A DNA stretch of 33,273 bases from Bacteroidota bacterium (lineage in GTDB: Bacteria > Bacteroidota > Bacteroidia > Flavobacteriales_C > GCA-002722245): assembly GCA_026390935.1 (NCBI GenBank), contig JAPLEZ010000112.1, forward strand, positions 1 to 33,273. The letters are read 5' to 3'. Position numbers and translations under genes: made by a program. This document shows positions 26,510 to 26,971 of this stretch, piece after piece. The notes below the pieces were generated by a model. That model was given only the letters and a program-made list of their open reading frames with translations, searched no databases and was not told where the DNA came from. Positions within the stretch are counted from its first letter, which is position 1, and each line of letters starts with the position of its first letter.

Positions 26510-26562
26510 TTGATGTGAAGTGGCGATAGGTCCTTCCTTCGTCAGGATGACACACTCCGTAG

Positions 26563-26971
26563 TTTCAGATTTTCAATCTGAAACAAAACTTAAAGCGATT
26601 TTTAATCGCAATTCACTCGCTCCGACAAGTTTAGCGAAGCGTAACTTGGCGGCATTGCGAGTGTGCTTAGAAGCTTTCAGCTTCTTTCCTTCGCAGAAGG
26701 AACATAAAACAAAATAGTTTTTCTTTCAGAAAAAGGAAGTTGAAAACTTCCAAGTAGACTCGTTGTTCCGCTAAGTTTCGCTTCGCTTAAACTTAGCGGG
26801 GCGGGGGATTTTTAATCGCAATTCAATGGGCATTAAAAATGCCTCCCACTCGCGCGCGTCTCTGACGCGTGCGGATTTATTAAGGCATTTGAAATGCCAA
26901 AAATTAGAAACAATACAATTGTAAGGATAAATCCGCACGCGTCAGAGACGCGCGCGAGGGAAAATCTGAAA
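26563..26971. repeat. Triloop hairpin array bounded by an 11-bp inverted repeat
   Basis: The block is bounded by TTTCAGATTTT (26563-26573) and its complement AAAATCTGAAA (26961-26971). Inside are perfect stems with three-base loops at 26563-26583 (9 bp, TTC), 26595-26609 (6 bp, TTT), 26670-26684 (6 bp, TTC), 26688-26700 (5 bp, GCA), 26718-26734 (7 bp, TTC), 26735-26751 (7 bp, GAA), 26807-26817 (4 bp, TTT), 26829-26843 (6 bp, AAA) and 26884-26898 (6 bp, TGA), plus the two arms of the 32-bp repeat. Two larger hairpins lie at 26614-26663 and 26768-26799, and their central parts are diverged copies of each other. A 19-base direct repeat lies at 26597-26615 and 26807-26825. The size suits a non-autonomous mobile element, but no target duplication was identified. 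Confidence 0.7.
26849..26958. repeat. Perfect 32-bp inverted repeat, GC-rich
   Basis: Arms 26849-26880 and 26927-26958 are exact complements over 32 bases, with a 46-base centre. The arms are far richer in G and C than the surroundings. Each arm also folds alone: CGCGTC-TCT-GACGCG at 26855-26869, extendable to 10 bp with one G-T pair, and the mirror form with AGA in the right arm. The centre holds the GGCATT-TGA-AATGCC hairpin. Confidence 0.9.

Follow-up and report, generated by a model that had tools for sequence, protein, structure and literature searches.

Between two convergent genes of a Flavobacteriales-like genome, trxB on the forward strand and a TonB receptor gene on the reverse, lies a block of 409 bases (26563-26971) crowded with perfect hairpins whose stems differ and whose loops are alike. 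What kind of sequence is this, and why should pairing persist where the letters do not? The block belongs to a contig of 33,273 nucleotides (JAPLEZ010000112.1), the whole of which we call the window, and has the highest hairpin density in it. Ten perfect stems, each of 6 bp or more and closed by a 3-nt loop, lie at 26562, 26595, 26669, 26686, 26718, 26735, 26829, 26855, 26884 and 26938; a further 5-bp stem lies at 26910, and one more match of 5 bp, at 26571, shares bases with the first hairpin. In 1000 dinucleotide shuffles of the block such stems averaged 0.23 and numbered 4 at most. An earlier note, made from the letters alone, had the count and loop style right. The inverted repeat that it saw bounding the block exists, at 12 nt (26563-26574 / 26960-26971) instead of 11 bp, and consists of the two outer hairpin arms of the repeat family called A below. 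Its statement that the stems are unrelated in sequence is only partly correct: GGCATT and CGCGTC each occur twice, and AGAAGCT/GGAAGTT and TTCCTTC/TTTTTCT are homologous hairpins differing by compensatory changes.

Across the genome the excess of hairpins over shuffles is not specific to triloops: in intergenic sequence sampled without bias, every loop size from 3 to 8 nt was about 3-fold above shuffles. The bias to GAA/TTC loops was traced to a few repeat families, and a genome-wide preference for triloops or GNA/TNC loops lost its support on collapsing the families (7 of 43 distinct stems) and comparing loops of other sizes. A scan of the window against Rfam gave zero matches and hence no support for the structured RNA that the note had offered as one option. 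Just upstream, AGGTCCTTCCTTCGTCAGGATGACA (26528-26552) is half of another widespread palindromic repeat, matched at six places in G053 and at one in G026, genomes that belong to other families.

Searched as DNA against its own genome (3.75 Mb, 155 contigs), the block gave 88 matches, which grouped into three separate intervals, and alignment of the fetched copies resolved three dispersed families of interspersed palindromic repeats, A, B and C. The note knew of no named element of this form, but a named class exists, the REPs, REPINs and BIMEs of RAYT (TnpAREP) transposases, to which we return. The block is a composite in which the three are inserted into one another: B interrupts A, and C occupies the place at which the right outer hairpin of A would have its left arm, the original order of A being visible in uninterrupted copies elsewhere (L043, L046, L024). 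The parts are as follows.

26551-26615, forward strand: left half of A; copies in the own genome (nhmmer, BLAST) are two-hairpin units with GTAG, GTAA or GTAC tags
26559-26562, forward strand: GTAG tag of the left half of A
Same half, forward strand: left outer hairpin of A, TTTCAGATT-TTC-AATCTGAAA
26595-26609, forward strand: left inner hairpin of A, GCGATT-TTT-AATCGC
26597-26615, forward strand: 19-nt piece of A, GATTTTTAATCGCAATTCA, first copy of an exact direct repeat, left of B
26616-26704, forward strand: left half-unit of B; covariance model match of 96.6 bits, and covariation
26622-26652, forward strand: B left hairpin 1
26669-26685, forward strand: B left hairpin 2, AGAAGCT-TTC-AGCTTCT
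26686-26702, forward strand: B left hairpin 3, TTCCTTC-GCA-GAAGGAA
26716-26805, reverse strand: right half-unit of B, inverted; covariance model match of 95.4 bits
26718-26734: B right hairpin 3', TTTTTCT-TTC-AGAAAAA
26735-26751: B right hairpin 2', GGAAGTT-GAA-AACTTCC
26768-26799: B right hairpin 1'
26807-26825, forward strand: second copy of GATTTTTAATCGCAATTCA, right of B
26826-26848, forward strand: A continued, with the right-half inner hairpin GGCATT-AAA-AATGCC (26829-26843), in the order of the uninterrupted copies
26849-26958, forward strand: C, with CGCGTC-TCT-GACGCG in each end and GGCATT-TGA-AATGCC and ACAAT-ACA-ATTGT inside; at least 18 further copies aligned; C-like hairpins flank a RAYT gene, G001:C44
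26960-26977, forward strand: remnant of A's right outer hairpin by comparison with uninterrupted copies, comprising loop and right arm GAAAATCTGAAA, plus TCACACCC

Such nesting is not unique to the window, since A, C and a B half stand side by side at a second place in the same genome (L029 8967-9239). Element blocks are centred inside open reading frames in 2 of 58 cases. Comparison of orthologous trxB loci, which the note had proposed, revealed presence and absence: in congener G002 the gap between trxB and the TonB receptor gene is without A, B and C and holds a different hairpin repeat. A fourth hairpin repeat, CTCCCTTT-GAA-AAAGGGAG / CTCCTCCTT-GAA-AAGGAGGAG, is common in the window's own genome and also occurs in the orthologous gap of G002 (sites at L098, in the gap after trxB, L053 204-224 and 13537-13632, and L116 7439).

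Two 88-nt half-units of three hairpins each, set in inverted orientation, make up B. The covariance model found 86 half-units in the own genome, 76 more in four congeners (44, 20, 10 and 2) and 0-2 in the sister genus, and 20 inverted pairs lie in the fetched third of the own genome. Folded as single-stranded DNA, the two halves of B close into one stem carrying four triloop hairpins (z -8.3). Across 37 distinct half-units 94.3% of cells are paired, and the stems hold 103 double-changed cells against 30.3 in shuffles, which ignore relatedness among half-units, and at most 16 with slid partners, a control that keeps it; at one stem position all four Watson-Crick pairs are seen. This covariation supports the note's view that pairing is kept and not sequence. 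Of 19 B copies, 18 are free of any flanking duplication above chance, which is what Y1 enzymes would leave; the copy in the window, with a 19-nt flanking duplication, is the sole exception and counts against the reading preferred below. That B in general duplicates its target site was rejected (1 of 19). Longer copies of B (L035, L040, L042, L050, L051) have a central module, AAATTTGATATTAAGAGGAGAAGCGCAGCTTCGG..., between the halves; the loop of hairpin 1, TTTAGCGNAGCG, recurs on different stems beside RAYTs of other families (L151, L156, L168); and dispersed B-like units occur in G301.

The window's genome has three Y1_Tnp genes. The RAYT gene on contig C135 of this genome has inverted B halves on both sides, an arrangement repeated at G000:C106 and G003:C36, while G002:C10 and G001:C31, both close to a contig end, have a B unit on one side. 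The C135 protein (181 aa) contains SNHVH, WQQ, YIHDNP and an SS motif, with a HuH-Tyr spacing of about 82 (81-84); the D of YIHDNP is Q or N in relatives. H60, H62 and Y143 are invariant among 33 sequences, and with scores of 30.2 bits against PF01797 (cut-off 23) and 104.7 bits against NCBIfam REP_Tyr_transpos NF047646 (cut-off 80) the protein has the Y1/HUH domain, HuH motif and catalytic tyrosine of a RAYT/TnpAREP enzyme above curated cut-offs. Its AlphaFold model (pLDDT 92) finds 4er8, the E. coli RAYT bound to a REP hairpin, as its best fold match in the PDB, though a PDB sequence search with a five-row RAYT profile gave no match. Judged by its motifs, it fits TnpAREP subclass 2.6, or RAYT group 5, which PMC6006769 tabulates as proteins of Bacteroidetes about 179 aa long with NH[LIV]H, WQ, YIH[QN]NP, an SS motif and some 82 residues between HuH and Tyr; its YIHDNP alone departs from the table. 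There are two RAYT lineages, about 71% identical, and each comes with its own B subtype, as cognate pairs should. The own genome and G004 also contain TIRYT-type elements, in which subclass 2.1-like RAYTs are flanked by GGGGACAG repeats (L081 645-1337; L082 1195-1920).

C is a 110-nt palindrome with 32-nt perfect inverted ends (z -13 as folded DNA) and has no GTAG/GTGG tag. Counterparts of C's hairpins, two of which differ by one compensated pair apiece, flank the RAYT gene G001:C44, of a more distant subclass 2.6 type, and the C-like units of this locus are dispersed in G001. In the own genome no RAYT cognate to C was found, which speaks against the preferred reading. In a distant genome (L214, G191:C1) the flanks of a RAYT contain CGCGTC-TCT-GACGCG, identical to the outer hairpin of C.

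A pairs two inverted copies of a unit that has two hairpins and a GTAG-like tag; in the window its right outer hairpin lacks the left arm at the junction with C. GTAG, GTAA, GTAC or GTGG stands at the hairpin foot in many copies, and no RAYT is linked to A. A is probably a GTAG-tagged relative, and that no RAYT cognate to it was found also weighs against the preferred reading; as the assembly of the own genome is fragmented, RAYT genes are possibly absent from the data.

B has the organisation of a REPIN, an inverted dimer of palindromic units that is multi-copy and intergenic, and of a REPtron, since its unit flanks a RAYT gene; at its foot are CTTAG, CTTGG or CGTAG variants instead of GTAG/GTGG. 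From the repeat families, the inverted B units around RAYT genes, the covariation and the loop pattern, all of which are observed, we infer cleavage, mobilisation and loop recognition by the RAYT. It is very probable that the block is a nest of three REPIN-like miniature elements in which B is the non-autonomous form of a REPtron mobilised by a C135-type RAYT, and C is likewise mobilised through a sister RAYT lineage. Of the note's options, the non-autonomous mobile element is supported, in the form of three nested elements, two with RAYT-linked counterparts. The three-hairpin half-unit of B would be the REP, recognised as single-stranded DNA by its cognate C135 RAYT, a HUH/Tyr nuclease that would spread B copies between genes; C would be the same kind of element, served by the sister lineage. 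On the best-supported reading, B and C copies arose as the RAYT nicked and joined single-stranded REP units, a reaction shown for E. coli TnpAREP (cited in PMC6006769, PMC3733652). The enzyme may read hairpin shape and a few loop bases, leaving stems to drift provided that both strands change together; different stems with alike loops would then follow.

The loops around RAYT genes elsewhere bear on this. A search of 395 Bacteroidia genomes turned up subclass 2.6-like RAYTs in 130, and flanking inverted repeats were detected at 37 of 63 such loci outside the genus with enough flank, against 2 of 107 control ORFs; the other 26 have no detectable repeat, a point against the preferred reading. 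In the 300-nt flanks of 65 RAYT loci elsewhere in Bacteroidia, triloop hairpins with stems of 6 bp or more number 140, where shuffles give 12.7; they represent 66 distinct apical stems. Read towards the gene, 101 of the 140 loops begin with T, 75 of these being closed by a T-A pair, and the next pair below 6-bp apical stems is G.T in 17 of 40. These figures are partly post hoc, the rule having first been noticed on the same loci; in a later-fetched set of thirteen loci from named genomes (Pedobacter, Flavobacterium, Siphonobacter, Balneolaceae and others) 17 of 22 hairpins were T-first, where about 28% was expected. A T-first triloop lies near 46 of 65 RAYT loci and 18 of 109 control ORFs of the own genome. 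In the window the rule fits, reading inwards, the loops of A (TTC, TTT), B hairpin 2 (TTC) and C (TCT, TGA, TGT); B hairpin 3 (GCA/GAA) breaks it, to the detriment of the preferred reading. The pattern of different stems with the same loops reaches beyond the window's genus, and suggests that subclass 2.6 RAYTs recognise a hairpin with a freely variable stem and a three-base loop starting with T. There is perhaps an even chance that the recognition code of RAYT group 5 is mainly structural, consisting of paired hairpins with a T-first triloop (TNY, usually T-A closed, often with G.T below a 6-bp apical stem) on stems of free sequence that diverge by compensation.

Could the hairpins instead be kept for transcripts, as bidirectional terminators or stabilisers of mRNA 3' ends, their mobility being lost or of minor importance? 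The genes on either side of the block are convergent, 16 of 47 element blocks in the genome are in convergent gaps, to which 72 of all 411 gaps belong, and such blocks are rare in divergent gaps, and compensatory changes keep the pairing. The positional bias is equally expected from selection against insertion into promoters, however, and inverted flanking of RAYTs, presence and absence among congeners, dimeric organisation and the loop rule around RAYTs elsewhere are left unexplained, so that this account is unlikely, although an additional role at mRNA 3' ends is possible given the over-representation in convergent gaps. Perfect stems might otherwise be made by template-switch (snap-back) copying in replication, rather than by selection for recognition. 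Two-sided pair changes (103 cells) do exceed one-sided standard pairs, and stems are perfect while loops vary between families; but neither the dispersed copies nor T-first loops facing the gene on 66 different stems, around RAYTs only, would follow, making it very unlikely as the sole cause. It may act jointly with RAYT mobilisation as a source of compensated stems, which could come from selection for pairing, template switching or both. It is very unlikely that C, instead of being a RAYT REP, is by itself a classical MITE mobilised by a DDE transposase or a TIRYT: its 32-nt perfect inverted ends and a solo C end about 140 nt from a subclass 2.1-like RAYT (G004:C78) would suit such an element, but that RAYT and its relative G000:C118 carry their own GGGGACAG-type repeats, for which reason a TIRYT was rejected, no longer element bounded by C ends was found in the own genome, so that C as the ends of an autonomous element there was dropped, and the counterparts of C's hairpins flank a subclass 2.6 RAYT in G001.

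RAYT mobilisation would place these elements beside known ones. Like the REPINs and BIMEs of Proteobacteria (RAYT groups 2 and 3), they are inverted palindromic dimers, intergenic, multi-copy and RAYT-linked; a canonical REP is a single hairpin with GTAG/GTGG at its foot, whereas units of B and C have two or three hairpins and no GTAG, and a GTAG-like tag is found in A only. TIRtrons or TIRYTs (PMC3733652) also place a Y1 transposase between inverted repeats, the inverted ends of C being themselves palindromic; they are mostly of subclass 2.1 with GGGGWSAS repeats, and such repeats are separate here (G000:C118, G004:C78), unlike C. Closest are the subclass 2.6 REPtrons of Bacteroidetes (PMC6006769), with the same protein length, NH[LIV]H, WQ, YIHxNP, spacing of about 82 and SS motif, and with flanking secondary structures that are copied elsewhere in the genome and have no consensus GT[AG]G. 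In the main text of that 2018 paper their REPs are 'atypical secondary structures' without GTAG, of 'weaker secondary structure'; set against it are the multi-hairpin half-units, covariation, T-first triloops, frequent G.T pair and two REP subtypes with two RAYT lineages described here. On such Bacteroidota REP structures we found only PMC6006769 and PMC3733652. Elements of this kind are already known, while the build from several hairpins and the T-first rule for loops seem to be new relative to these texts, the latter provisionally because the supplement of PMC6006769 may list such structures.

In the main literature consulted, subclass 2.6 REPs were known only as atypical structures needing manual inspection. 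An architecture backed by covariation, with a phylum-wide loop rule, would permit automatic detection of these elements in Bacteroidota, and makes recognition of widely differing stems by a HUH transposase testable. If true, a structural code would allow one genome to hold many REP families side by side, and would account for such REPs having been missed in searches based on GTAG.
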